A stretch of 34,304 nucleotides of DNA from an uncultured Ignavibacteria bacterium (GTDB lineage Bacteria > Bacteroidota > Ignavibacteria > Ch128b). The notes under the pieces are model-generated. The model was not told the DNA's origin, ran no database searches, and worked only from the letters and a program-made list of their open reading frames with translations. Made by a program: the position numbers and the translations under genes. Shown in pieces: positions 17,064 through 32,063 of this stretch (within the stretch, counting starts at the first letter, position 1; the number at the start of each line of letters is the position of its first letter). The stretch is from assembly GCA_937944105.1 (NCBI GenBank), contig CALDZP010000091.1, positions 1 to 34,304 on the forward strand. The letters run 5' to 3'.

Positions 17064-19067
17064 ATGACAGAAGGTAAAAAATATGTTCCTTTTGTTCCAC
17101 CAGATAAAATACTTCCAGAATTTACAGTACGAGCTTTAATCATTGGATTAATAATGTGTGTTGTTCTTGGTGCTGCTAATGCATATTTAGGTTTGAAAGC
17201 TGGAATGACAATCGCAGCGACATATCCTGCTGCAGTTATTGGTATGGCTCTTTTGAAAGCAATGAAGGGCTCTATTCTGGAAGAAAATTTTGCTAGAACT
17301 GTTGGTTCAATTGGTGAATCTGTAGCAGCAGGTGCAATTTTTACTATTCCTGCATTTTTTATTGCTGGTATATGGCCTGAATTTACAACTCAATATTATC
17401 TTGAATCAGCCGTGATAATGTTTGTTGGTGGTGTACTGGGAATAATGTTTGTAGCATTGTTAAGAAGAGTGATGGTTGAAGACGCTGAGTTACCTTTCCC
17501 GGAATCTGTTGCTGCAGGTGAAATCCATAAAGCTGGTAGAACTGGCGGTACTGGTGCTAAATTTCTGTTTGGTGCTATGGGAATTGGTGCTTTAATTCAA
17601 GCTTTAGGTCAATTGAACTTTTTTGCAAAAAGTTGGGAAAAATTTGTTCATTTTTCAAAAACAGTTATTGGATTAAAAGGTTCTGGGGATGCAACTGCAC
17701 AAGGTGGAATTTTATTAAGTTCTCCTGGTGTTAGCCCTGCTTATATTGGTGTGGGATACATTATTGGACCAAAATTAGCTTCATTAAATTTTAGTGGTGG
17801 ACTTTTAGCCTGGGGATTATTTGTCCCTATTATAACTTATTTCCTCGCACCAAGCTTATTATCTTCTAAGCCAGATCCTCAAGAAAGTGATTGGATTTCA
17901 ATGTCAGTGAATGTTTGGAAATATATTGTAAGACCAATTGCTATTGGTGGAATGTTGGTAGGTGCTGGTTATACTTTGTTTAGAATGAGAAAAAGTTTAT
18001 TAACTGGAATAAAAAGGTCTATAAGCGACGTTAAAAAAGCTGCTACTGGTGAACATGTTGAAATTCGAACTGAACAAGATATCAAATTTACCTGGGTAAT
18101 GATTGGGATTTTACTTTCTGCTGTGGCTACTTTTTTCATTTACAATTATTTTGCTCAGGATGTGATTGCTGCATTAGTTGCAACTTTGGTAATGATAATA
18201 GCAGGATTTTTCTTTGCTGCAGTTTCCGGTTATCTCGTAGGAATTATTGGTTCAAGTAACAATCCGATAAGTGGGTTAACTCTATCAACTTTACTTGTTG
18301 CGGCTTTATTAATGGTTGCTCTTGGTATGAAAGGTACATCCGGGGTTGCTGCAGTTCTTGGGGTTGCTGCTGTTGTTTGTGTTGCTGCTGCTGTCGCTGG
18401 TGAGATGTTACAGGATTTGAAAGTAGGACATATTCTTGGAGGTACGCCATGGAAAATGCAAGTGGGTGATATTATTGGAGTTGGATTAGCTGCAGCTGTA
18501 ATGTTTATTCCATTATTGATTCTTCATCAAGGTGATATAAATACTGGTGGAACTGGATTTGGAGGTAAGAATTTACCAGCACCACAAGCAAGTTTAATGG
18601 CATTACTTTCACAAGGAATAGTAAAAGGTGAGATGGCATGGCCATTAATTATTGTTGGTATGTTAATGGGATTTGGTTTTATTTTAATGCAAGTTAGAAG
18701 TCCAATGCTTGTTTCCGTTGGTATGTATTTACCACTTGAAACTACATTTGCAATTTTTATTGGTGGATTAATCAAAGGTATTGTAGAAAAAATAAATGAT
18801 GCGAAAAAATTTAATGAAGCGCAGAGAGCCAGAGTTGAGAATACTGGTGTTTTACTCGCTGCTGGATTAATTGCTGGCGAAGCATTGATTGGACTTGTGT
18901 TTGCTGGATTTGCATTCTTTGAGGTTTCTCTACTTAAAATTTTTGAACAACCAACTTTTGGAATTAGTTTGCTTGTCTTTTTATTCATTGCCTGGTTATT
19001 GGTTCAAATACCTGTGAAAAATGCTGGCAAACCCGATGAACCAGCTCCACCAAGTGCAATGATGTAA
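17064..19067 (+). CDS. OPT family oligopeptide transporter
   Basis: Integral membrane importer of the oligopeptide transporter family (667 residues, within the bacterial OPT range), expected to take up small peptides by proton symport; some OPT members carry metal chelates instead. Many hydrophobic segments run the full length. Family signatures are EFTVRALIIGLIMCVVLGAANAYLGLKAGMTIAATYPAAVIGMALL at the start, NFARTVGSIGESVAAGAIFTIPAF, LPFPESVAAGEIHKAG, GSSNNPISGLTLSTLL and GTPWKMQVGDIIGVG. AAAGGAG lies 5 bases before the ATG. It has its own promoter and a strong terminator, and precedes a run of peptidase genes, which supports peptides as substrate. The end (PDEPAPPSAMM) is a short Pro-rich tail. 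Confidence 0.92.
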   Translation: MTEGKKYVPFVPPDKILPEFTVRALIIGLIMCVVLGAANAYLGLKAGMTIAATYPAAVIGMALLKAMKGSILEENFARTVGSIGESVAAGAIFTIPAFFIAGIWPEFTTQYYLESAVIMFVGGVLGIMFVALLRRVMVEDAELPFPESVAAGEIHKAGRTGGTGAKFLFGAMGIGALIQALGQLNFFAKSWEKFVHFSKTVIGLKGSGDATAQGGILLSSPGVSPAYIGVGYIIGPKLASLNFSGGLLAWGLFVPIITYFLAPSLLSSKPDPQESDWISMSVNVWKYIVRPIAIGGMLVGAGYTLFRMRKSLLTGIKRSISDVKKAATGEHVEIRTEQDIKFTWVMIGILLSAVATFFIYNYFAQDVIAALVATLVMIIAGFFFAAVSGYLVGIIGSSNNPISGLTLSTLLVAALLMVALGMKGTSGVAAVLGVAAVVCVAAAVAGEMLQDLKVGHILGGTPWKMQVGDIIGVGLAAAVMFIPLLILHQGDINTGGTGFGGKNLPAPQASLMALLSQGIVKGEMAWPLIIVGMLMGFGFILMQVRSPMLVSVGMYLPLETTFAIFIGGLIKGIVEKINDAKKFNEAQRARVENTGVLLAAGLIAGEALIGLVFAGFAFFEVSLLKIFEQPTFGISLLVFLFIAWLLVQIPVKNAGKPDEPAPPSAMM

Positions 19068-19722: not shown

Positions 19723-21180
19723 ATGGGAGAATTATTATTCTTAAAACCTGAACTCGTCTGGAAACATTTCGAGCAACTTTGTAATTACCCGCGACCTTCA
19801 AAAAAAGAGCAGAAAGTTGTTCAATATGTATTAAATGTAATTCAAGATTTGGGTCTCGAATATGAACAGGATAGTTTCGGGAATATTCTCGTAAGAAAAC
19901 CAGCAACTCCAGGATTTGAAAATAAAAAAACAGTTTGTCTTCAAGGTCATTTGGATATGGTTTGTGAGAAAAATAGTGATGTGCAACATGACTTTGAAAA
20001 TGATCCCATTCAACCATATATTGATGGTGACTGGGTTAAGGCAAAAGGTACAACACTTGGAGCTGATAATGGAATTGGCGTAGCTGCAGCTATGGCTGTA
20101 ATGGAATCAAAGGAAGTTCAACATGGTCCAATCGAATTTCTTTTCACACTCGATGAAGAGACTGGACTTACAGGAGCAAGTAATCTTAAACCTGGGTTTG
20201 TGAAAGCTGATATTTTATTAAATCTTGATTCAGAAGAAGACGGATCGTTTTACATTGGATGTTCCGGCGGAAAAGATACGGAAGGAAAATTTTTTTATAA
20301 AAAAGAAAATGTTCCACAAAATTCACTTGCCTACAAAATCAAAGTTACTGGATTAAAGGGTGGTCATTCAGGACTTGATATTCATCTTGGTAGAGGAAAC
20401 GCAATTAAAATTTTGAATCGTCTTTTATGGAATCTTCAAAATATGTTTGATATTAGATTATCAAAAATCGAAGGTGGAAGCAAACGCAATGCGATTCCAA
20501 GGGAAGCATTTGCAGAATTAGTTGTTACGGAAAATAAATCTGATGAACTTGAAAAATTCATCAATTCATACAATAATCTCGTAAGAAGTGAAATATCAAA
20601 TGTTGAACCAAACTTAAGAGTTGAGTTCGAGAAAATAAACTTACCTGAATTTGTAATTGATAAATCAACTCAAATAAATTTACTAAACGCTTTATATGCT
20701 CTTCCTCATGGCGTTATTAAAATGAGTGCTGATTTACCAGATTTAGTTGAGACTTCAACAAATCTCGCAACTATAACTTTTGGAGATGAGATTATTGTTG
20801 GTACAAGTCAAAGAAGTTCCGTTGAAAGTGAAAAGGAGGATATTGTTATAATGAATCGAACTGTTTTTCTTTTAGCAAATGCTGAAGTAAAACATGGAGA
20901 CGGTTATCCCGGCTGGAAACCTGATGTAAATTCAGAAATTTTAAAAATCATGAAGGAAGTCTATAAAAATCTTTATGGTAAAGAACCAGAAGTAAAAGCA
21001 ATTCATGCTGGGTTAGAATGTGGAATTATAAAAGAAAAATATCCTACTATGGATATGATTTCATTTGGACCAACAATTATGGGTGCACATTCTCCTGATG
21101 AAAAAGTTCAGATTAGCACAGTTGAAAAATTTTATAATTTATTGCTTGAGGTCTTAAAAAATATTCCAGATAAAAACTAA
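19723..21180 (+). CDS. pepD: Cytosolic dipeptidase (aminoacyl-histidine dipeptidase), M20 family
   Basis: Cleaves dipeptides of broad sequence, including Xaa-His, in the cytosol with zinc. At 485 residues it matches PepD of E. coli. The metal and catalytic residues are all present: His76 and Asp78 in LQGHLDMV, Asp115 in TTLGADNGIG, Glu145-Glu146 in FTLDEETGLTGA, Asp169 in LLNLDSEEDG and His456 in GAHSPDE. The lid domain carries GGHSGLDIHLGRGNAIK and EGGSKRNAIPREA. AAGGAG stands about 9 bases before the ATG. Its stop shares one base with the next ATG (TAATG), so it is coupled to the MFS permease gene, which suggests that the permease supplies its dipeptide substrates. Confidence 0.95.
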   Translation: MGELLFLKPELVWKHFEQLCNYPRPSKKEQKVVQYVLNVIQDLGLEYEQDSFGNILVRKPATPGFENKKTVCLQGHLDMVCEKNSDVQHDFENDPIQPYIDGDWVKAKGTTLGADNGIGVAAAMAVMESKEVQHGPIEFLFTLDEETGLTGASNLKPGFVKADILLNLDSEEDGSFYIGCSGGKDTEGKFFYKKENVPQNSLAYKIKVTGLKGGHSGLDIHLGRGNAIKILNRLLWNLQNMFDIRLSKIEGGSKRNAIPREAFAELVVTENKSDELEKFINSYNNLVRSEISNVEPNLRVEFEKINLPEFVIDKSTQINLLNALYALPHGVIKMSADLPDLVETSTNLATITFGDEIIVGTSQRSSVESEKEDIVIMNRTVFLLANAEVKHGDGYPGWKPDVNSEILKIMKEVYKNLYGKEPEVKAIHAGLECGIIKEKYPTMDMISFGPTIMGAHSPDEKVQISTVEKFYNLLLEVLKNIPDKN

Positions 21181-22526
21181 TGGATATTAAAATGAAAGAA
21201 ATTCGAAGAGAACCACCATCATATTTACGATGGATTGTTTGGCTATTTATTAGTCTTTCTATGTTTGGTAATTATTACATTTATGATAGTATAAGTCCCT
21301 TAGCAGATTTGCTCAAAAATCAACTCGGATTTTCAGATTCAAATATTGGATTGCTTAATGCTATTTATAGTTTTCCAAATATAATTATGGTTTTGATTGG
21401 TGGCATAATCATTGACAGAATAGGAACAAGAAAAGCTGTCTTTATCTTTACAACTCTTGTGATGTTTGGTTCTCTTCTTACTGCCTTAAAAGGTGATATA
21501 CTTGTCATGGCTTCAGGAAGGTTACTTTTTGGACTTGGTGCCGAATCAATGATTGTTGCAATTACTACAATAATTGCCAGATGGTTCAAAGGAAAAGAAT
21601 TATCTTTTGCTTTTGGATTGAATTTGACTTTAGCTCGGCTTGGTTCATTTATGGCTTTAAATTCACCAATGTGGGCAAAACAATATTATGATTACTGGCA
21701 AAATCCATTGTGGATTGCTTTCTATGCTGGTCTTTCTGCACTTTTCTTTATTTCAATTTATTTTGTTATTGATTTAATGAGTTCCAAAAAATATGAACTT
21801 CCACCCGAAGGAAACCAGGATAAAGTCGTCATAAAAGAAATTTTCAGTTTTGGCAAAGCTTTCTGGTTTATTTCTGCTTTGTGCGTTACTTTTTATTCTG
21901 CCATGTTTCCGTTTCAAACTTTTGCAATTAAATTTTTTCAGGAAGTTCATGGTACAACTAGAGAAGTAGGTGGAAATCTTTCAAGCATACTTACATTGTC
22001 AGCAATGATTTTTACTCCGCTTTTTGGTCTATTAGCTGATAAAGTTAAGAAAAAATCTCTTTTGATGATGTTTGGTTCATTTTTAATTATTCCCGTTTAT
22101 TTAATTATGGCATACAAAATTGATCTTGCTACACCATTTGGAATTAGCGGAAATCTGGAAATCAATCTTAATTTTTTTGATATTCATACATCTATACCAG
22201 CTTATTTAATTATACCAATGTCAATGATGGGAATCGCATTTTCATTAATTCCTGCAGTAATGTGGCCATATGTTGCTTTAGTTGTTGATTCATCGAAACT
22301 TGGAACTGCTTATGGTTTGATGACAATGATTCAAAATATTGGTTTATTTTTGTTTAATATTTTGATTGGTTTTTCGAATGATTTATTTAAAGCAAGCGCT
22401 GAAAATCCTTCAGGTTATATTCCAGGTATGTGGATATTTTCGATTCTTGGATTTTCAGGTTTACTATTTTCTTATTTATTAAGAAAAGAAGAAAAGAAAA
22501 TTAATCTACCATTAAAATATGAGTAA
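21180..22526 (+). CDS. MFS permease related to MFSD1
   Basis: Major facilitator protein of 448 residues with about 12 hydrophobic segments. The loop after the second segment carries GGIIIDRIGTRK (MFS motif A). The N-terminal half resembles animal MFSD1, a lysosomal dipeptide transporter, closely as I recall its sequence: FGNYYIYDSISPL, YSFPNIIMVLIGG, GRLLFGLGAESMIVA and RWFKGKELSFAFGLNLTLARLGS. That similarity is from memory, not a search. Together with its place between a dipeptidase and an aminopeptidase, it makes dipeptide transport the best guess; sugar or drug transport is less likely. The start overlaps the pepD stop by one base; a second in-frame ATG is at 21192. Eight bases overlap the next gene. 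Confidence 0.85.
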   Translation: MDIKMKEIRREPPSYLRWIVWLFISLSMFGNYYIYDSISPLADLLKNQLGFSDSNIGLLNAIYSFPNIIMVLIGGIIIDRIGTRKAVFIFTTLVMFGSLLTALKGDILVMASGRLLFGLGAESMIVAITTIIARWFKGKELSFAFGLNLTLARLGSFMALNSPMWAKQYYDYWQNPLWIAFYAGLSALFFISIYFVIDLMSSKKYELPPEGNQDKVVIKEIFSFGKAFWFISALCVTFYSAMFPFQTFAIKFFQEVHGTTREVGGNLSSILTLSAMIFTPLFGLLADKVKKKSLLMMFGSFLIIPVYLIMAYKIDLATPFGISGNLEINLNFFDIHTSIPAYLIIPMSMMGIAFSLIPAVMWPYVALVVDSSKLGTAYGLMTMIQNIGLFLFNILIGFSNDLFKASAENPSGYIPGMWIFSILGFSGLLFSYLLRKEEKKINLPLKYE

Positions 22527-23487
22527 AATTATGAACAGAGATTTGTTAAAAAGTTCAAAAATTGCTCTCAAAGATTATCTCGGTTTACAAAAAGAAGAGA
22601 ATCTATTAATAATTTGTGATGAAGCTAAAAGGGAAATTGGTTTAGCTTTATATGAGATTGGAAAAACTTTATGCAAGGAATCAGTTTATGTAGAAATGAA
22701 GGCTCGTGAAGTTAATGGGGAGGAACCTCCAGATCAGATATCAGATTTGATGAAAAAATTTGATGTAGTTGTTTGTCCAACTTCAAAATCATTGACACAT
22801 ACAAACGCAAGACGAGAAGCTGTTAAATTTGGTGCAAGAGTTGCTACTATGCCCGGAATTACAAAATCAACAATGGTTCGATGTCTTTCTGCCGATGCAA
22901 AGAAAATTATTGAACTAACTGAGAATGTCAAAAATGCTTTACAAAATGCAAAAGAAATTCATGTGGTTTCGAAAAATGGAACTGATTTAAAAATGAATAT
23001 TGAAGGTAGAAAGATAATTCCAAGTACTGGGGTTTTAAAGAACAAAGGGGATAGTGGGAATCTTCCCTCAGGAGAAGTTTATCTTGCTCCAATTGAAGGT
23101 TCCACAAATGGTGTCATTGTATTTGATGGTTCCGTTGCTGGGATTGGAATTTTGAAAAATCCAATAAAAGTTACAATTATAGATGGTTATGCTCAAAAAT
23201 TTTCTGGTAGAAACGAAGCAAAACAATTACAAAAACTTCTTGATAAAATTGGTGGAGATGCAAAAGCCGTTGCTGAATTTGGTATTGGTACAAACTATAA
23301 AGCAAAAATAACAGGTCATATTCTTGAGGATGAAAAAGTTTTAGGAACGGTTCACATTGCATTCGGAAATAACTTATCTATGGGTGGTATTTTAGATGTT
23401 TCAATTCATATTGATGGTTTAATTAAGAAACCAACCGTTTTAGTTGATGATATTGTGATAATGGAAAATGGTGTATTATTAGTTTGA
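22519..23487 (+). CDS. M29-type (thermophilic-like) aminopeptidase
   Basis: Probable metallo-aminopeptidase that removes N-terminal residues from peptides. The 322 residues have an N-terminal domain with VVCPTSKSLTHTNARREAVKFGARVATMPGI and a C-terminal metal domain. The latter shows NLPSGEVYLAPIEGSTNG, AEFGIGTN, ILEDEKVLGTVHIAFGNN and a final Asp in LVDDIVIMENG, giving the Glu, Glu, His and Asp pattern of peptidase family M29. M29 proteins are often near 400 residues, so this is a short form of the family. The ATG at 22519 overlaps the MFS stop by eight bases; the ATG at 22531 is an alternative. Last gene of the PqqD-PepD-MFS run; only weak A/T hairpins follow. Confidence 0.83.
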   Translation: MSKIMNRDLLKSSKIALKDYLGLQKEENLLIICDEAKREIGLALYEIGKTLCKESVYVEMKAREVNGEEPPDQISDLMKKFDVVVCPTSKSLTHTNARREAVKFGARVATMPGITKSTMVRCLSADAKKIIELTENVKNALQNAKEIHVVSKNGTDLKMNIEGRKIIPSTGVLKNKGDSGNLPSGEVYLAPIEGSTNGVIVFDGSVAGIGILKNPIKVTIIDGYAQKFSGRNEAKQLQKLLDKIGGDAKAVAEFGIGTNYKAKITGHILEDEKVLGTVHIAFGNNLSMGGILDVSIHIDGLIKKPTVLVDDIVIMENGVLLV

Positions 23488-23536: not shown

Positions 23537-24895
23537 TTAATTAAATTTTTTAATTGAATAAATCTTTGTGAATCCAAGCCAATTGAAATTATCAAAACTA
23601 CCGAAATGTTCTTCAAAGATCTTGTAATAAAAATACTCTTCCTTTGTTCGAATAATAAATCCGTTTTCAAGTTCCCTATTATCATTAAAATCAAAATCCG
23701 AAATTTTTGATTCTGCGTAATCTTCGAGTAAACTTTTTAATCCACTTCCCAGCCAGAATTTTTCTTTTGGTCGATTAAAAATTTGTTCGGGTAAAATATT
23801 TTTCATTGATTCTCTTAAGATCCATTTTTCAATCCCATCTTTTATTTTTAATTCAGGAGGGATTTGTAAGGCGAACTTGACGACATCAGGATCTGAAAAT
23901 GGAATATGCGGAATTATCCCATGAGAATATGCACTGCGATCCACTCTTTGAAATGCAGTATTAGCTAAATCTTTTGTAATGTTTAATAATTCAGCAGGGA
24001 GTTCGGATAAAGGTATAAATTTCAAATATTCATAACCTGCAAAAAGTTCATCTCCACTTTCGCCGGAAAAAACTTCCTGTACATAATCTTTTGCTATGGA
24101 TGTGATTATATAGTTTATAATTGATGATCTCACCAGATAAGCATCAAATGATTCGAGATGATAAATAACCTCTGGTAAGACTTCCAAGATTTGATTTCTA
24201 TCAACAACTATTTCAAAATGATGTGATTTAATGTATTCAGCCAATAGTTTTGCAAATTTTAAATCGGTGGAATTCTTAAGACCACCAGCAAAGGTATAAA
24301 ATTTTTTGACTCGGGAACTCGCAATTGAAGCAATAACACTTGAATCAATTCCACCACTTAACCAACTTCCAAACTCTGTTTTAGTTTCAATTCTCTTATA
24401 AATTGAATTTTGAATTTTTTCTCTTAGCTTATTCGAAATTGATTGAACTGGTTCGTTAAAAAATTTGTCTGGTAACTTTATTTGGTCAAATGAGGATAAT
24501 GTATGATTAAAATATTTCACTCCTGGTTTTAGCTCATTAATATCTCGAGTCGCTACAAGTAATGCTTTTATTTCAGAAGCGAAACACAAAGAATTTAATT
24601 TATCATGACCGTAATACAATGGAACAACTCCAATAAAATCTCTTCTTAATTCAATTGAACCATTAATTTCTTTTGCAATGCTAAAATGAACATCATAAAG
24701 ATTATGGGCTACCATCTTTTCATTTATGAAATTATTAATTTCATCTTCCGAATGAAAATTTGTTAGAATGCCCAAAGTAGAGTTTTCTGTTGAGAAAACC
24801 TTTCTGACCTTATCAGCTCTGTGAGATATTTTATCCAGCATTTTGTTGACAAGATCAAATTCGTTTGGTCGATTAATTCCAGCTATTCCTGACAT
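23537..24895 (-). CDS. Asparagine-synthetase-like ligase lacking the glutaminase Cys
   Basis: Residues 170-400 match the ATP-dependent synthetase domain of AsnB: the PP-loop SWLSGGIDSSVIAS (177-190), TFAGGLKNSTDLKFAKLLAEYI, IYHLESFDAYLVRSS, VFSGESGDELFAGYEY and a C-terminal RPKEKFWLGSGL. The N-terminal glutaminase domain starts MSGIAGIN: Ser2 stands where AsnB has the nucleophile Cys2. The NGEIYNH glutamine site is missing and the domain is about 50 residues short, although GVVPLYYG and FASEIKALL remain. It should therefore adenylate a carboxylate and use free ammonia or another amine, not glutamine. Length is 452. It follows the B12 gene by 16 bases with weak GTAAAG before the ATG, as third gene of the operon. 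The substrate need not be aspartate. Confidence 0.85.
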   Translation of the reverse strand: MSGIAGINRPNEFDLVNKMLDKISHRADKVRKVFSTENSTLGILTNFHSEDEINNFINEKMVAHNLYDVHFSIAKEINGSIELRRDFIGVVPLYYGHDKLNSLCFASEIKALLVATRDINELKPGVKYFNHTLSSFDQIKLPDKFFNEPVQSISNKLREKIQNSIYKRIETKTEFGSWLSGGIDSSVIASIASSRVKKFYTFAGGLKNSTDLKFAKLLAEYIKSHHFEIVVDRNQILEVLPEVIYHLESFDAYLVRSSIINYIITSIAKDYVQEVFSGESGDELFAGYEYLKFIPLSELPAELLNITKDLANTAFQRVDRSAYSHGIIPHIPFSDPDVVKFALQIPPELKIKDGIEKWILRESMKNILPEQIFNRPKEKFWLGSGLKSLLEDYAESKISDFDFNDNRELENGFIIRTKEEYFYYKIFEEHFGSFDNFNWLGFTKIYSIKKFN

Positions 24896-24911
24896 CTTTA
24901 CTCATTTCATA

Positions 24912-26552
24912 TTAATCAAGATATTTTTTCAATCGTTGTTTTTCTTTCAAAATTTTTCCAGTTCGACTACTTACAGCATACCAGGCTCCATTAATAAGAT
25001 TTGTTTTTATCTTACCGCAGAGATGAGGGTTACCAATAAAGTGAGGAGTATCTAAAATTCCTTCTTTAATTGCTTTTGCTAATACAATGGGATCTGATAT
25101 TGGATCCTCGCTCAAGTTTTTACCAAAATTTTGAATTGCTTTAATAATTAACTTGGCTTCATTTTTTAATTCTTCTTTTCTTTTAATTAAAGCTTTGTCT
25201 TTAGAAATATCAGGGAGACCATCCAGAACATTTCTAATTACACCATGAACTATTTTACAACTTTCAATTAATTCTTCTGGATAAACAGCGTGATCTCCTT
25301 CACAATATGCGACAACATGTAAGATGTGTGGTTTAAGATAAAGCATAACCAACGACGAAGCTGCAAGTTGACCTTTTGCAATAAATGGGTCAGGAAAGAA
25401 ATGTGCAATGCCGGCTCGAACTTCTCTAAAGAAATCGAAATTACTGTCTTTTAATTCTTCTATTAACTCATTTTTAGCCATCATTTTTGCTAGATCCATT
25501 TGTGGTGAAGTGCCTGGTGGAGTATTAAACATAAATTGAGCAACATATTTTTTTACACCCATTTTTTTTGCATTGTAAGCTGCAAGATAAGCAGTTGCAA
25601 CTGCAAGAGAATCGTGAGCATCTCTTAAGCTCCATTGATGTGACTCATTTACTTCAACAGGAATATTTCTTTCGGCATACCATTTCATAGCTTTTTGGTT
25701 TTCTGCTATTGAAATTTCAAGTGGTCTTTTTGACCTACCATCCATAACGCTATACCATGTAAGTGGTATCGCAGCCCAAGCGTTATTGATTGTGTCGACG
25801 GACATTTCAGCCCATTTAATTAGATTATTAGTACCACTATAAACTCTCATTAAAGGGAAATTGCCAGTTCTTGAAGCCTCGAATATTTTCTTTAAATCTT
25901 CCGCTTTTCTTACAGGCACTCCTCCCGCACCATCGAGTTCAGGTCTCATCAATTCAGGTGTAAAGAAAAATTCTTGAGCATTTTGATCCGTTCCGAGAGA
26001 GATAACATCAAGTACTTTTGATTCTGCTATTTTTCGAACTCCATCAATGGTTTCTTCTAATGATGGTCTACCAAAGTGATGTCTTATAATTGGATAGGGG
26101 AATTTTTGTTCGATTCTTTCAACCAATGTTTGAGGGTAATTTTCATCAGAAATTTGATGTGATTCACCTCTTAAAAACGCAATAACCTCTTCAGTAGTTT
26201 CGGTTCCATCAAAAACACTATCGAAAATATTTGCTCGTCTGGCAATTTCTGCTACTTGTGGTGTTCCACCAAAAATAAATTTTTTAGACTTTAGAAATTC
26301 CTCTTTTGAAATTTTGTCTTTGATTTGTTGAATGAGTTTTTCACCGACTTCAGGTGTTAAGCGGTAACTTATGGCAACAATATCAGGATTATATTTTTTA
26401 ATCTCTTTGAATAATCTTTCCAAAGGAACAGCAGGACCAAGTGAAATTGTTTGGAATCCTTCTAAATGAGCAAGCTGTAAGAAATGATTCAAACCACCAA
26501 TATGAACACAATTACCGATAGCACAACCTAAGATTAATTTTTTATTTCTCAT
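24912..26552 (-). CDS. Cobalamin-binding mutase-like protein
   Basis: Residues 1-130 form a B12-binding Rossmann domain: GCAIGNCVHIGG with the lower-ligand His17, SYRL (62-65) and GG (95-96). The usual D-x-H-x-x-G reads C-V-H-I-G-G, so Cys15 replaces the Asp. Residues about 160-420 look like a TIM barrel of the adenosylcobalamin mutase type: LDVISLGTDQNAQEFFF, MRVYSGTNNLIKWAEM, INNAWAAIPLTWYS, NESHQWSLRDAHDSLAVATA and FMFNTPPGTSP. Glutamate mutase is the nearest known type I can name, but there the B12 part is a separate subunit and here it is N-terminal. The C-terminal 80 residues are helical. I cannot name the reaction. It overlaps the dehydrogenase stop (ATGA) with AGGAGA before the ATG. 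Confidence 0.78.
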   Translation of the reverse strand: MRNKKLILGCAIGNCVHIGGLNHFLQLAHLEGFQTISLGPAVPLERLFKEIKKYNPDIVAISYRLTPEVGEKLIQQIKDKISKEEFLKSKKFIFGGTPQVAEIARRANIFDSVFDGTETTEEVIAFLRGESHQISDENYPQTLVERIEQKFPYPIIRHHFGRPSLEETIDGVRKIAESKVLDVISLGTDQNAQEFFFTPELMRPELDGAGGVPVRKAEDLKKIFEASRTGNFPLMRVYSGTNNLIKWAEMSVDTINNAWAAIPLTWYSVMDGRSKRPLEISIAENQKAMKWYAERNIPVEVNESHQWSLRDAHDSLAVATAYLAAYNAKKMGVKKYVAQFMFNTPPGTSPQMDLAKMMAKNELIEELKDSNFDFFREVRAGIAHFFPDPFIAKGQLAASSLVMLYLKPHILHVVAYCEGDHAVYPEELIESCKIVHGVIRNVLDGLPDISKDKALIKRKEELKNEAKLIIKAIQNFGKNLSEDPISDPIVLAKAIKEGILDTPHFIGNPHLCGKIKTNLINGAWYAVSSRTGKILKEKQRLKKYLD

Positions 26553-27646
26553 AATTTTTCTCCTATAGCTAATAAACGAAGCTCTCTTAAATTTAGATGT
26601 GCAATATTCAAATTTTCAACAGTTCTGCCTTCAGACCAATAATCTGTTTGATTTAAGATGCAAGCCAATCTAATTATTGAATCAATAGTAGGGGTTTCAA
26701 CTCCAAATTTCTTACCAATTGAAGCGATTGGAACAAGACTCGTTGGCACATCTTCAGTTAAATAACGCATATTCAATCTAGTAGGAGCAAGAATACCTCT
26801 GTAGCCTGGATTTGCAAGCATTGCATCATATAAATTTTCACCTGAGGCGCTATATGCAAGGTAAAGCCATTCACGGGCTGTAATAGCTCTAATTCCAAGT
26901 GCCTCTGCAACCATTACTCTTTCTCTATCAACAGCTTCTAAGACTTTCGCTACAGATGGTGTTACACCTTGAACATAAAATTGAAATTCCGAATCATCTT
27001 CAATCCAACCAGCGTTTAAAACACATATTGTTGGATGAAAAACAGCTCCAATATTATCTAAACTTGTTTTAAAAATGTTATCTCCGGGTACAAATTGTGG
27101 ATAAGCTATTCTTAATTTCTTTAAAACTTCAGGAATTAGATGAGCTCTAATTGATGCAATGGGAATAGAATTTTTAATTCTATAAATCTTTGCTTGACCT
27201 GGATTGATTGCTCTTGATGCATAAATAAAAGTTTGTGTCTCAGCGATAATAACATCGGCAGTTACATTTTTAGAATTTAATGTTTGTCGAAATTCAAGTG
27301 CTCCAAAAGTTCTTCCAGGATTTAGAACTACTATCTGACCATCTTTTAAGTATGGAGCCATTGCTTCTGCAATAAATTTATGTGCAGTAGCAGGTACAAC
27401 GACCATAATTATATCTACACCTTCTATTGCCTCAGCCATATTTGTAGTTGCTAATGAAACTTTTCCAAAACCTTTTAATCCAAAGTCGCTTTCAATTTGA
27501 ATACCGCCGGTGGCAGTAACTCCCCATAATCTTTCTTGAGTTCTATTGTATAGTTTTACTTCAAAACCCATCAAACCAAGATGACCAGCCATTGCAAGTC
27601 CACCATGACCTGCACCGATAACTGCAAATTTGGGTTTATTGTCCAT
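26549..27646 (-). CDS. NAD(P)-dependent opine/octopine-type dehydrogenase
   Basis: Enzymes of this family reductively join an amino acid to a 2-oxoacid, or run in reverse, and include octopine, nopaline and related opine dehydrogenases. The 365 residues have a Rossmann domain starting FAVIGAGHGGLAMAGHL (GxGxxG at 11-16), VVVPATAHKF, VVLNPGRTFGALEF, and the octopine-DH domain with DNIGAVFHPTICVLN, where His204 fits the catalytic His. First gene of a three-gene operon, with AAGGAG 7 bases before the ATG. The stop overlaps the start of the B12-binding protein. The operon partners suggest an amino-acid-like substrate, but neither amino acid nor oxoacid can be read from sequence. Ketopantoate reductase is the main alternative and fits less well. 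Confidence 0.85.
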   Translation of the reverse strand: MDNKPKFAVIGAGHGGLAMAGHLGLMGFEVKLYNRTQERLWGVTATGGIQIESDFGLKGFGKVSLATTNMAEAIEGVDIIMVVVPATAHKFIAEAMAPYLKDGQIVVLNPGRTFGALEFRQTLNSKNVTADVIIAETQTFIYASRAINPGQAKIYRIKNSIPIASIRAHLIPEVLKKLRIAYPQFVPGDNIFKTSLDNIGAVFHPTICVLNAGWIEDDSEFQFYVQGVTPSVAKVLEAVDRERVMVAEALGIRAITAREWLYLAYSASGENLYDAMLANPGYRGILAPTRLNMRYLTEDVPTSLVPIASIGKKFGVETPTIDSIIRLACILNQTDYWSEGRTVENLNIAHLNLRELRLLAIGEKL

Positions 27647-27943: not shown

Positions 27944-28975
27944 ATGTTTGAAAAATTAAAACAAATTTTTGCTCAACCAAATAGAGATCCATTTCCAGAT
28001 TTTCTTCGTGGTCTTGCTGTTATCTTTATGATTCAGATACACATAACTGAATTATTGTTATTACCAGACCCTACATATCATTTATTAGAAAAATGGTTGT
28101 ACTTTTTAGGAGGAATTCCCGCTGCTCCAATTTTTTTGATTCTAATGGGATATTATCAGGATAGAACAAATGCCGACATGAAAAAAGAATTTTTTCGTGG
28201 GATAAAAATATTCCTGCTTGGATTGAGTTTAAATTTGTTAATGAATTTATCTTTACTATATAAATATTTCTCTCAACAGATTGATGTTAATATTTACAGT
28301 TATATTTTCGGTGTGGATATCTTATTATTTGCGGGTTTAAGTTATTCAGTAGTGGCAATTTTAAGAAGAAAAATCCGAACTACATCTTTTTTGGTTTTAT
28401 TAATTTTAATGATTTATATAATACATTTTTCAATAAAAGATATTTCAATGGATAATTTTGAGGGAATTTATTTTCTTTCGTTTTTTTATCGGGTAAGTTA
28501 TTGGTCTTATTTTCCACTGATACCATGGTTAGTATACCCAATAATAGGAATTATTCTTAATCGAACTGAGCTCTTTACCAAAATCATTGATAAAAATTTT
28601 TCATCATTTTTTTGGATTATATATCTCATATTATTTTTCATTACAATAGAATTTGGTTTAATAAGTTCTTATGATCTTGATAAATATTATAATCACAATT
28701 TTATAATATTTATTTATTCCTTATTTATTTTGTTTGGATGGATAAAACTAATCAAAACAATATTTGACAAATTTTACGAAAATTTATTCGTAAAATATTT
28801 AAGCTGGCTTGGAAGAAATGTAACTATAGTATATTTCTTACAATGGATTATAATTGGTAATATTGGTACATATCTTTATAAATCATTAACCGTAAATTCT
28901 TGTGCTTTAGTTTTATTAGTGGTTTTGTTTTCTGTAACAATATCCACTTATCTATATCAACTTAGTCGTTCTTAA
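27944..28975 (+). CDS. HGSNAT/DUF1624-like multi-pass membrane protein
   Basis: Membrane protein of 343 residues with about ten hydrophobic segments. The start, RDPFPDFLRGLAVIFMIQIHITELL, matches the R-x-x-x-x-D-x-x-R-G-x-x-x-x-x-M-x-x-x-H pattern of the heparan-alpha-glucosaminide N-acetyltransferase (DUF1624) and acyltransferase-3 groups, with Arg22 and His33. IPAAPIFLILMGYY forms the third segment and WLGRNVTIVYFLQW a late one. Transfer of an acyl group to a sugar or lipid headgroup across the membrane is plausible from the family, with substrate unknown. Codons are strongly A/T biased, like the neighbours. There is no Shine-Dalgarno before the ATG. It overlaps the convergent 1033-residue gene by 14 bases at the 3' ends. 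Confidence 0.72.
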   Translation: MFEKLKQIFAQPNRDPFPDFLRGLAVIFMIQIHITELLLLPDPTYHLLEKWLYFLGGIPAAPIFLILMGYYQDRTNADMKKEFFRGIKIFLLGLSLNLLMNLSLLYKYFSQQIDVNIYSYIFGVDILLFAGLSYSVVAILRRKIRTTSFLVLLILMIYIIHFSIKDISMDNFEGIYFLSFFYRVSYWSYFPLIPWLVYPIIGIILNRTELFTKIIDKNFSSFFWIIYLILFFITIEFGLISSYDLDKYYNHNFIIFIYSLFILFGWIKLIKTIFDKFYENLFVKYLSWLGRNVTIVYFLQWIIIGNIGTYLYKSLTVNSCALVLLVVLFSVTISTYLYQLSRS

Positions 28976-31900
28976 TTTTTTGAGTTTGTCTTTTTGCTTC
29001 TTTTACTTTCCACTCAATTTTTTTGCTTAAGAACTTTTTCGGTTGATAATTCTGATTATAATTTGCTAATTGTATAAAGTATTCTATCACTTTTTGATAA
29101 TTATCTGTATAGAATGCACTTGCAGCAAAAGTATAGAAGAATTCTGAGAGGTCAAAATGATTAATTAAATGCGGATTATCTTTCAAAATTTGTTCAACTT
29201 TATAGCAATACTCAATTGCTTTATCTGGCTGACTATTTTTTAAGAATACAGAGGCGAGTTGGGTATAAAACTTTAAATCAGAAAGTTTGTCACTATTGTG
29301 ATGGGATAACAAAATTTTTTCAGCTTCCACAATTGGAAATATTTTTAGAAAATTTGTTGCATTTATGTTTTCAAGTAAAATTTGATTTGCAAGAAAACCA
29401 GCTATTTGACTTGAATTATTATGAATAGAATAATCCTCAATTAATTCTTTTTTATCGTACTTGATAACTCCTAAAATTTCCTCAGTCTTATACTTATTTA
29501 TTACAGCATAGATATTTGATTTATACTTTATTGATAAATATTTGCTGAAGCCATAAACTAATCTATAATTTTTACTTCTGTTTAAATGATATTCTATAGC
29601 ATTTAAAATTTCATTGTCAGTTACTTTAAATTTTTTGATATATTCCTTCACAAGAAGATTTAAATTTAGTGTATCAAATTTTTCATCATTTTGATATACT
29701 AATAAAGATGTATTACCTTTATAAAATGCAATTGGTGCAAGAAACTCAAGAAGTGGTTTTCTTTCAGAATTAATGAAGTTATCAGTTGTTAAAGTAAAAG
29801 AACCTTCCGGTGAAAGAATTTGTGTAGTCAAAAGGGTAAAAGGAGTTTCAATACCGATTTTCTTTAAATTTTCTTTCACTTCAAATTTTGAAAATTTAGA
29901 AGAAAGTACATTAAAATCAGGTTGAATATTTTCTAACGAGCCAATTAAAATTAAATCGCCATAAGCGCCACCCCAAATTTGAACATAAGGAAAAACAGAA
30001 TTGAAAGTTGAAATAACCAAAGTCAATACATCATCATCCATTTCATATATATGGAACCACTGGCACATTATTCCTCCTGAATTCAACTTATCTTTACACC
30101 GCTCAAAATATTCCTTCGAAAAAAGATTTCCAATACCAGCAATCCACGGGTTTGAAGGTTCGGAGATTATTACATCAAATTTTTTATTTGTTATTTTCAG
30201 AAATGACTGTGCATCTTCCACAACTACTTTAACTCTTTTATCGTTCAAACAATTCTCGTTCACCTCTGAAAAGAGTTTAGATGCTTCCAACACTTCTTTC
30301 GAAATCTCGGAGCAGATCACTTCATTTGGATTATGTTTTAAAACTGCATTTACAGTCGAACCACTACCATAACCAATAATAAAAATATTTTGAGGTTGGG
30401 GATGTAAAATCATGGGGATATGACCAAGAAGTAATTGTGTTGGCAAATCACCCACACTACTTGCATCTGATTTTCCATTAATCAATAAAATTTTTTGACT
30501 TATTGTGTCCAATGTTTTAATAACGCTCACATTCCCACTTATTCCATCTTTGTAAAAAATAATCTCTCTATTCTTAAAAATCTTTTTATAATCAGAATAA
30601 CTTGGAGGAGGAGAATCATTTAATTTTCTAAAAACTCCAGAAGTCATTATTTGTGGAGCCCAATCTGGAATAATAAACAACAAAAGAACTGTTATAACGT
30701 ATGATGGATAGATGAATTTTTTATAACTTTTTCTGATTGTTTCTTTCTGCGATACAAGCAGAATTAATACGGCTAAAAGATTAATTATTATTCCTAATAA
30801 GAATGAATTTTTGATACCTAAAAATGGAATCAGAATTAAACCAGTTGCAAAGGAACCGAGAACATTTCCAAAGGTGTTGACAGAAAAAACAATTCCAACT
30901 GAATAACCAATTAGTTGTTTGTTATGAGCTATAATTTCCACAATTAAAGGTAGACTCATTCCCATAAAAATAGTCGGGATAAACATTAAGGTAAAACAAA
31001 TAAAAAATTCAAAACTCAAAAAAATTGAAAAAGCCTCGTTTGACTTTGCAAAAAGTGTACTTAATTTCCAGAATTGATAGGGAAGATAAGGTAAAATTAA
31101 AAGGGCAATTAAGATTGTGATTGAAATCATCAACTGGGAAAAAATTAAAACATTTATTCTATTAAATTTCGAAATAAAACTTGATGAAACTATAAAACTT
31201 CCAATAGTTATTCCACTTATGAATGCCATTAACATTAAAGAAAATGAATAAGTCGAAGAACCAAAAACTGAAATTAAAACCCTTGTCCATAAAATCTCAT
31301 ACATTAAAGAAGCAAATCCACTTAGACCTGCAATAAGTACAACTAACTTTATTGCTACCGGGCTAAGATCTGTAATGTTATTTTTTATTTCTTCACCCTG
31401 AAATACTTTGTTGTATGTTGCTTTTTGTAGCAAGACAAAAGAGCTTATTAAAATACTTATTGAACCAATCAATACATTAACTATTCCACCAATTCTCATC
31501 GTAATGTCTAAACCAAATGTTTTTATAAAGATGAAACCGGCAAAAAAGACTCCTACAACCGCCCCAAAAGAATTAAGAAAATACAGATTTGCATTTTCCT
31601 TTCGAATATTCTCAACGCGCTCAGTAAAAAATTGAGTTAACAAAGGTAGAGTGCCGCCCATTAGAATGGTGGGAAGTATTAAAATTAAAATTGAAATCAG
31701 AAATTTTATAAGTAAATATATGATCGAATTATTTAACAAAAGTTCTTCACTAATTGTAAAATAAAACATTTTCTCAAACAAATTAATTATAAAAGGAAAA
31801 AAGAGGCAATAAAGTCCAATTAGTAATTCAATCAATCCATAAAATAAAAGTTCATTTTTGATTCTGTCAGCAATTTTTCCAAAAAAGAAATTACCAATAG

Positions 31901-32063
31901 CAAGTCCACCAAGAAAAGTAGCAAGAACAATTGTTTGAGCATATGTAGTATTTCCCAGAAATAACGATAAATATTTAAACCAGGTGATTTGAAATATTAA
32001 ACCTGTCATTCCAGATAATAAAAAGAAAAGATAAACGATAGAACGAATATTATTATTGTTCAT
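28962..32063 (-). CDS. Fused membrane transporter / spermidine-synthase-like / TPR protein
   Basis: A 1033-residue fusion. Residues about 1-215 and 235-455 hold two sets of hydrophobic segments, each with a repeated G-x-x-x-P-L motif (ILPTILMGGTLPLL and FIPTIFMGMSLPLI) typical of the fused MFS/spermidine synthase family. Residues about 500-700 are a Rossmann aminopropyltransferase-like domain: FIIGYGSGSTVNAVL (near 556), VICSEISKEVLEAS, VVVEDAQSFL and DVIISEPSNPWIAGIGNLFSKEYF. True spermidine synthases have a G-G-G-D-G loop and a catalytic Asp where this has GYGSGS and SEPSNPW, so polyamine synthesis is doubtful. Residues about 920-1010 form TPR-like helices (FLKNSQPDKAIEYCYKVEQIL). AGGAT precedes the ATG. 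Members of this fusion family lack a settled function. Confidence 0.85.
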   Translation of the reverse strand: MNNNNIRSIVYLFFLLSGMTGLIFQITWFKYLSLFLGNTTYAQTIVLATFLGGLAIGNFFFGKIADRIKNELLFYGLIELLIGLYCLFFPFIINLFEKMFYFTISEELLLNNSIIYLLIKFLISILILILPTILMGGTLPLLTQFFTERVENIRKENANLYFLNSFGAVVGVFFAGFIFIKTFGLDITMRIGGIVNVLIGSISILISSFVLLQKATYNKVFQGEEIKNNITDLSPVAIKLVVLIAGLSGFASLMYEILWTRVLISVFGSSTYSFSLMLMAFISGITIGSFIVSSSFISKFNRINVLIFSQLMISITILIALLILPYLPYQFWKLSTLFAKSNEAFSIFLSFEFFICFTLMFIPTIFMGMSLPLIVEIIAHNKQLIGYSVGIVFSVNTFGNVLGSFATGLILIPFLGIKNSFLLGIIINLLAVLILLVSQKETIRKSYKKFIYPSYVITVLLLFIIPDWAPQIMTSGVFRKLNDSPPPSYSDYKKIFKNREIIFYKDGISGNVSVIKTLDTISQKILLINGKSDASSVGDLPTQLLLGHIPMILHPQPQNIFIIGYGSGSTVNAVLKHNPNEVICSEISKEVLEASKLFSEVNENCLNDKRVKVVVEDAQSFLKITNKKFDVIISEPSNPWIAGIGNLFSKEYFERCKDKLNSGGIMCQWFHIYEMDDDVLTLVISTFNSVFPYVQIWGGAYGDLILIGSLENIQPDFNVLSSKFSKFEVKENLKKIGIETPFTLLTTQILSPEGSFTLTTDNFINSERKPLLEFLAPIAFYKGNTSLLVYQNDEKFDTLNLNLLVKEYIKKFKVTDNEILNAIEYHLNRSKNYRLVYGFSKYLSIKYKSNIYAVINKYKTEEILGVIKYDKKELIEDYSIHNNSSQIAGFLANQILLENINATNFLKIFPIVEAEKILLSHHNSDKLSDLKFYTQLASVFLKNSQPDKAIEYCYKVEQILKDNPHLINHFDLSEFFYTFAASAFYTDNYQKVIEYFIQLANYNQNYQPKKFLSKKIEWKVKEAKRQTQKIKND

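Follow-up and report, generated by a model that had tools for sequence, protein, structure and literature searches.

The window, as we call the whole stretch of 34,304 nucleotides analysed here, carries three genes read one after the other on the minus strand. The first encodes an opine dehydrogenase (ODH; 26549..27646, 365 aa), the second a B12 mutase-like protein in which an N-terminal B12 domain is followed by a glutamate-mutase-like barrel and a C-terminal domain (24912..26552, 546 aa), and the third an AsnB-like ATP-dependent carboxylate ligase (23537..24895, 452 aa). The stop of the ODH gene overlaps the start of the B12 gene by 4 bp (26549..26552, minus strand) and a gap of 16 bp separates the B12 gene from the AsnB-like gene; the operon of overlapping or closely spaced genes proposed in an earlier, sequence-only reading is confirmed to the exact coordinate. 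Ribosome sites precede the ODH (AAGGAG) and the B12 gene (AGGAG), and a weak one precedes the AsnB-like gene. The three proteins match Pfam families Octopine_DH (4e-48), B12-binding (7e-7) and Asn_synthase (3e-56), respectively. No Rfam element, cobalamin riboswitch included, was found near the operon, and a scan of the operon for promoters and terminators gave roughly chance level. Beside it lies a convergent operon (window 19723-23487) with an aminoacyl-histidine-type dipeptidase, an MFS transporter and an M29-peptidase-like gene, followed by an OPT peptide transporter at 17064-19067; on the other side, window 28962-32063 encodes a 1033-aa protein in which a spermidine-synthase domain is fused to an MFS-like membrane part.

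The same arrangement recurs far beyond this genome. A profile scan of GTDB genomes returned 250 relatives, from which 80 loci were taken, 81 with the window. They span about 25 phyla, archaea included, and the groups represented include Ignavibacteria, Acidobacteriota, Aminicenantes, Armatimonadota, Atribacteria, Caldisericota, Omnitrophota, Thermotogae, Bacillota, Actinomycetota and Planctomycetota (organisms are called by their deposited names, which belong mostly to MAGs, and single names may be wrong). One of the carriers is Fusibacter sp. 3D3 (L098). In 74 of the 80 further loci the B12 gene has an ODH gene next to it, on the same strand in 73 and with a gap of <200 bp in 71, which rules out chance adjacency; a separation of the genes in relatives, which would have spoken against the first reading, is not what we see. 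Five of the six loci without an ODH run into a contig end, and L077 alone truly lacks it: its 10-kb flanks are complete, and it has the B12 protein and AsnB with no ODH nearby. Two genomes of the window's class (L002, L003) have the identical three-gene set, and of 198 genomes from the window's phylum three encode an ODH, exactly the three operon genomes. For Clostridia, 13 of 14 genomes with the B12 protein encode an ODH versus 35 of 245 overall (P about 1e-11). Distances between ODHs correlate with those between B12 proteins (r 0.71 over 75 loci, shared species descent left in), as expected if both genes travel together. A plasmid search with the B12 protein as query gave no match. The operon is a real, widely conserved pathway module. 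Apart from the main family, two Clostridia (L181, L182) have divergent B12 barrels of 600-650 aa with a DAHTLG motif adjoining an ODH, and in a third Clostridia genome (L183) the contig stops at the gene of a similar barrel.

The solved structure nearest to the window ODH is 1bg6 (E 3e-76), the N-(1-D-carboxyethyl)-L-norvaline dehydrogenase of Arthrobacter (CENDH/ArODH). Hot-spring enzymes about 40% identical to it (mODHs) prefer Asp and Glu with pyruvate and mostly use NADPH, the A111R/N198G swap and its reverse switched ODH specificity upon mutagenesis, and Arg35 marks NADPH use (Telek 2024, PMC10787698). Throughout the operon ODH family, window included, we find this signature, with R111 in 73/73, G198 in 73/75 and R35 in 71/72 sequences (ArODH numbering), together with H204 in 75/75 and D299 in 76/76. 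In the window the specificity residue is Arg112 (codon 27311..27313, minus strand; equivalent to A111R) and its partner is Gly200 (codon 27047..27049, minus strand; equivalent to N198G), with R35, R112, G200, H204 and D299 conserved. His204 is the catalytic His of the His-Asp dyad, and Asp299 is taken as its catalytic Asp. These signature residues, together with similarity to ArODH, predict that the window ODH acts on an acidic amino acid and pyruvate with NADPH. We reject an octopine/norvaline-type enzyme, as in the earlier label "octopine/opine-type", since the signature residues differ. The operon ODHs are like the mODHs in being ArODH-like with Arg 111, Gly 198, Arg 35 and the His-Asp dyad; the physiological role and gene context of mODHs are not given in that study (PMC10787698), and the operon described here supplies a context. 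The mODHs are slow on Asp, and 3-methylaspartate is absent from the substrates named (PMC10787698).

To what extent does the signature follow the B12 gene? Among 30 Clostridia ODHs taken as a control, both R and G are present in 14/14 B12-linked enzymes (L163 being counted as linked via an intervening ATP-grasp gene) versus 3/16 unlinked ones (P about 5e-6). The three unlinked ODHs with this pair (L138, L139, L143) carry Lys35, and their genes are flanked by one for a DctM TRAP transporter and one for an ornithine-cyclodeaminase-like protein (OCD), a cluster that probably serves uptake and breakdown of an acidic opine.

Such a cluster is a point in favour of reading the operon itself as catabolic, with the ODH oxidatively cleaving an opine that is imported or already inside the cell, and with the mutase feeding a glutamate/3-methylaspartate fermentation. 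Glutamate mutase is classically a fermentative enzyme, ODHs are reversible, and many operon carriers are anaerobes. Against this, neither a methylaspartase nor a dedicated transporter recurs beside the module in the 81 neighbourhoods, an ATP-consuming ligase is unsuited to breakdown, and R35 points to NADPH, a donor used in biosynthesis, in contrast to the K35 of the TRAP-linked ODHs. We therefore regard a catabolic role as decidedly unlikely.

The B12 protein resembles glutamate mutase in its architecture. Residues 1-130 (26163..26552, minus strand) constitute the B12-binding domain, which is matched by all 50 of 50 sampled members of the family; the DxHxxG motif reads CxHxxG, with His17 and Gly20 invariant and the Asp replaced by Cys15. 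Residues 143-546 (24915..26126, minus strand) form a mutase barrel with a GlmE-like C-terminal domain, as judged by an AF2 model (pLDDT 92.5), a fold search and hhalign. The top Foldseek match of the model is glutamate mutase subunit E (6h9e/1cb7, E 5e-17, 16% identity), then come ornithine 4,5- and lysine 5,6-aminomutase, and then methylmalonyl-CoA mutase. Profile comparison with genuine GlmE is colinear over GlmE residues 31 to 433 (E 1.7e-8 / 1.1e-5), and the GlmE-type C-terminal domain falls inside this match. At the Pfam level, 13 of 50 members match MutE weakly and below its curated cut-off (E up to 0.01, the best being 4.7e-8), and the window protein does not match it. PF06368 matches elsewhere in the phylum are mainly methylmalonyl-CoA mutases, so the Pfam label by itself would be misleading.

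Comparison with the GlmS/GlmE enzyme of Clostridium cochlearium (1cb7/6h9e) shows both how close and how different the two are. The folds are alike (TM 0.66 on target), with B12 domain, barrel and C-terminal domain in common, and the ribose-contacting Glu330 of GlmE (in the numbering of the crystal structure) aligns with the invariant Glu418. However, the S and E domains are here fused in one chain, and Arg66, Arg100 and Arg149, which we take to be the arginine claw that holds glutamate in glutamate mutase, are matched by His159, a gap and Tyr238, respectively (a remote alignment, to be given moderate weight). Free glutamate may consequently not be the substrate of the mutase. There is moderate evidence, drawn from the alignment, that the B12 protein forms a family of its own, with a different substrate or a different mode of binding it. 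It does not fall inside a characterised mutase family, which would have spoken against the first reading. Whereas GlmS/GlmE has methylaspartase as a partner, here the mutase is paired with an opine dehydrogenase and a ligase, and a stand-alone fermentative glutamate mutase is rejected because the partner genes are absent. In one locus (L069) a GlmL gene lies between the ODH and B12 genes (597 bits versus a cut-off of 475), and a cob(I)alamin adenosyltransferase is encoded in the window genome; both support the B12 protein working as a mutase of this kind.

The third position of the operon is more variable. The window ligase contains the ATP PP-loop SGGIDSS (SGGxDSS) and the SGE..DE motif, and Ser2 (codon 24890..24892, minus strand; N-terminus MSGIAG) replaces the catalytic Cys of the glutaminase. 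Asparagine synthetase B of E. coli (1ct9), with its PP-loop synthetase domain, is the best profile match, from which the operon ligases differ in that the glutaminase is mostly shortened with its Cys lost, and in conserved changes near the aspartate site. The dead glutaminase noticed at the outset is real in the window but not a rule of the family: 7 of the 36 AsnB partners retain the Cys, which suggests ammonia as the nucleophile. Beta-lactam and carbapenam synthetases are AsnB relatives that lack this Cys and have N-carboxyalkyl amino acids or similar compounds as substrates, and the remote structure matches of the window ligase include 1jgt and 1q15, so it might be thought to close a lactam ring and yield a cyclic product. 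This appears very unlikely, given a profile match of 2e-82 to AsnB versus 1e-32 to beta-lactam synthetase and 8e-29 to another lactam-type enzyme, and given that ammonia is the implied nucleophile where the Cys is intact. A lactam synthetase as such is rejected on profile, asparagine synthetase being far closer.

AsnB-like genes are found in 36 of the 81 loci and Ddl-like ATP-grasp genes in 16, and never both together (P about 2e-5, kinship ignored). Other kinds of ATP-grasp take the place of the ligase in two loci within polysaccharide clusters (L035, L184), and 30 of the 81 loci have no ligase nearby. That several ligase families fill one slot argues that ATP-driven activation of a carboxylate is a real step of the pathway. 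ODH and mutase are the invariant core and the ligase is the exchangeable part. The three-enzyme pathway originally envisaged survives in its conserved mutase, secondary-amine formation and amide ligation, with the amendment that the last of these enzymes can be swapped. In three loci (L082, L083, L090) the genes of the Ddl-like ligase and the ODH are separated by an ornithine-racemase-like gene that scores below the Orr cut-off, a hint that the partner is a D-amino acid in these lineages.

Genes around the operon suggest a function in osmotic stress. MscS channels are encoded within 5 kb of the operon in 7 loci from several phyla, where 0.33 were expected (P about 6e-8, kinship included), and none occur at 5-10 kb. 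The expectation is derived from 44 MscS matches in 85.8 Mb of 30 carrier genomes, and is conservative because these genomes were picked partly for nearby MscS. MscS TM-helix proteins are found near the operon in 3 loci, as is trehalose-phosphate synthase in 3, once together with a trehalase-like GH15; Na+/H+ antiporters are present in several loci and two-component systems also recur. It is these channels, antiporters and trehalose genes that form the basis for proposing an osmolyte. It should be noted that the loci with osmotic-type neighbours are a minority and that the window has none. A MarC gene is near the operon in 7 loci, directly 3' of the AsnB-like gene in L044, L046, L051, L058, L075, L076 and L102; we know of no agreed function for MarC, and its link with AsnB may serve as a lead. 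A Na+/glutamate symporter gene is located upstream in L186, the only such case among the loci checked. The NAGGN osmoprotectant cluster offers a parallel, as there too an AsnB-type amidation takes part in making a compatible solute, but it contains neither mutase nor opine dehydrogenase, and the window AsnB scores 112 bits against a cut-off of 570.

A different context is seen in a divergent branch (L004, L034, L035) and in L184, where modules of ODH, B12 barrel and ATP-grasp lie inside surface-polysaccharide clusters. Bacterial O-antigens contain opine-type amino acids, and the Ddl-like ligases of the operon loci resemble cell-wall enzymes. The same three-enzyme chemistry could accordingly produce a building block of surface glycan or cell wall and not a free solute. 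We consider this unlikely for the module as a whole, since most main-family loci are without adjoining glycan genes and some have the channels, antiporters and trehalose genes described above. An opine metallophore, similar to staphylopine or pseudopaline, or another exported secondary metabolite is also conceivable in principle: known metallophores are made by opine dehydrogenases, and polycarboxylate amines chelate metals. Neither an exporter, a metal importer nor a nicotianamine-synthase-like gene recurs in the 81 neighbourhoods, however, which makes a product of this type highly improbable; a metallophore operon proper is rejected, its transport genes being absent.

Weighing these observations (the operon and its conservation, the fold, the ODH signature residues, the interchange of ligases and the bias of the neighbourhoods), we give about an even chance to a biosynthetic pathway whose product, most likely an osmolyte, is a branched acidic amino acid that bears an N-(1-carboxyethyl) group and is amidated or peptide-linked. 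The class of chemistry is well supported, whereas the exact substrate, the order of steps, the product and its role are inferred. The fused glutamate-mutase-like enzyme would use adenosylcobalamin and radical chemistry to rearrange the skeleton of an acidic amino acid, in the simplest case from glutamate to the 3-methylaspartate skeleton. The ODH would reductively couple an acidic amino acid with pyruvate at the expense of NADPH, and whichever of the two enzymes goes first, the product would be an opine of the N-(1-carboxyethyl)-3-methylaspartate type. The AsnB version of the ligase would then convert one carboxylate to an amide, much as Asp is converted to Asn, and the Ddl-like and other ATP-grasp versions would join a carboxylate to another amine; amidation or peptide linkage would lower the negative charge of the product. 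Anionic and zwitterionic solutes are the usual osmolytes of anaerobes and thermophiles. Most lineages probably make the product as a solute inside the cell under osmotic stress, and in the divergent branch it probably decorates the surface polysaccharide.

A useful analogy, limited to the way the system may work, is the formation of pyrrolysine by PylB, PylC and PylD, where a skeleton mutase, an ATP-grasp ligase and a dehydrogenase are encoded in one small operon. In contrast to the present case, PylB is a radical-SAM and not a B12 enzyme; moreover, there is no same-role homologue among the three enzymes and no link to tRNA. A literature search found no published description of a set of opine dehydrogenase, B12 mutase and ligase, in line with the initial impression that no pathway with this set had been described, and nothing relevant on opine dehydrogenases in connection with a mutase, cobalamin or compatible solutes.

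To our knowledge, carbon-skeleton adenosylcobalamin mutases belong to few families, nearly all of them catabolic or acting on CoA thioesters. More tentatively, we see it as possible, rather than probable, that Bacteria and Archaea share an undescribed B12-dependent pathway to a new class of osmolytes, namely branched acidic amino acids with an N-(1-carboxyethyl) group in the form of amides or peptides. Its first step would be catalyzed by a new family of adenosylcobalamin mutases, possibly acting on the opine itself, a secondary amine. If true, this would be a new use of B12, linking a glutamate-mutase-like family to an opine dehydrogenase specific for acids and to an amide ligase, and it would provide a probable function for the orphan opine dehydrogenases from hot springs. 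The operon points to an undescribed metabolite with which anaerobes and thermophiles may withstand osmotic stress.
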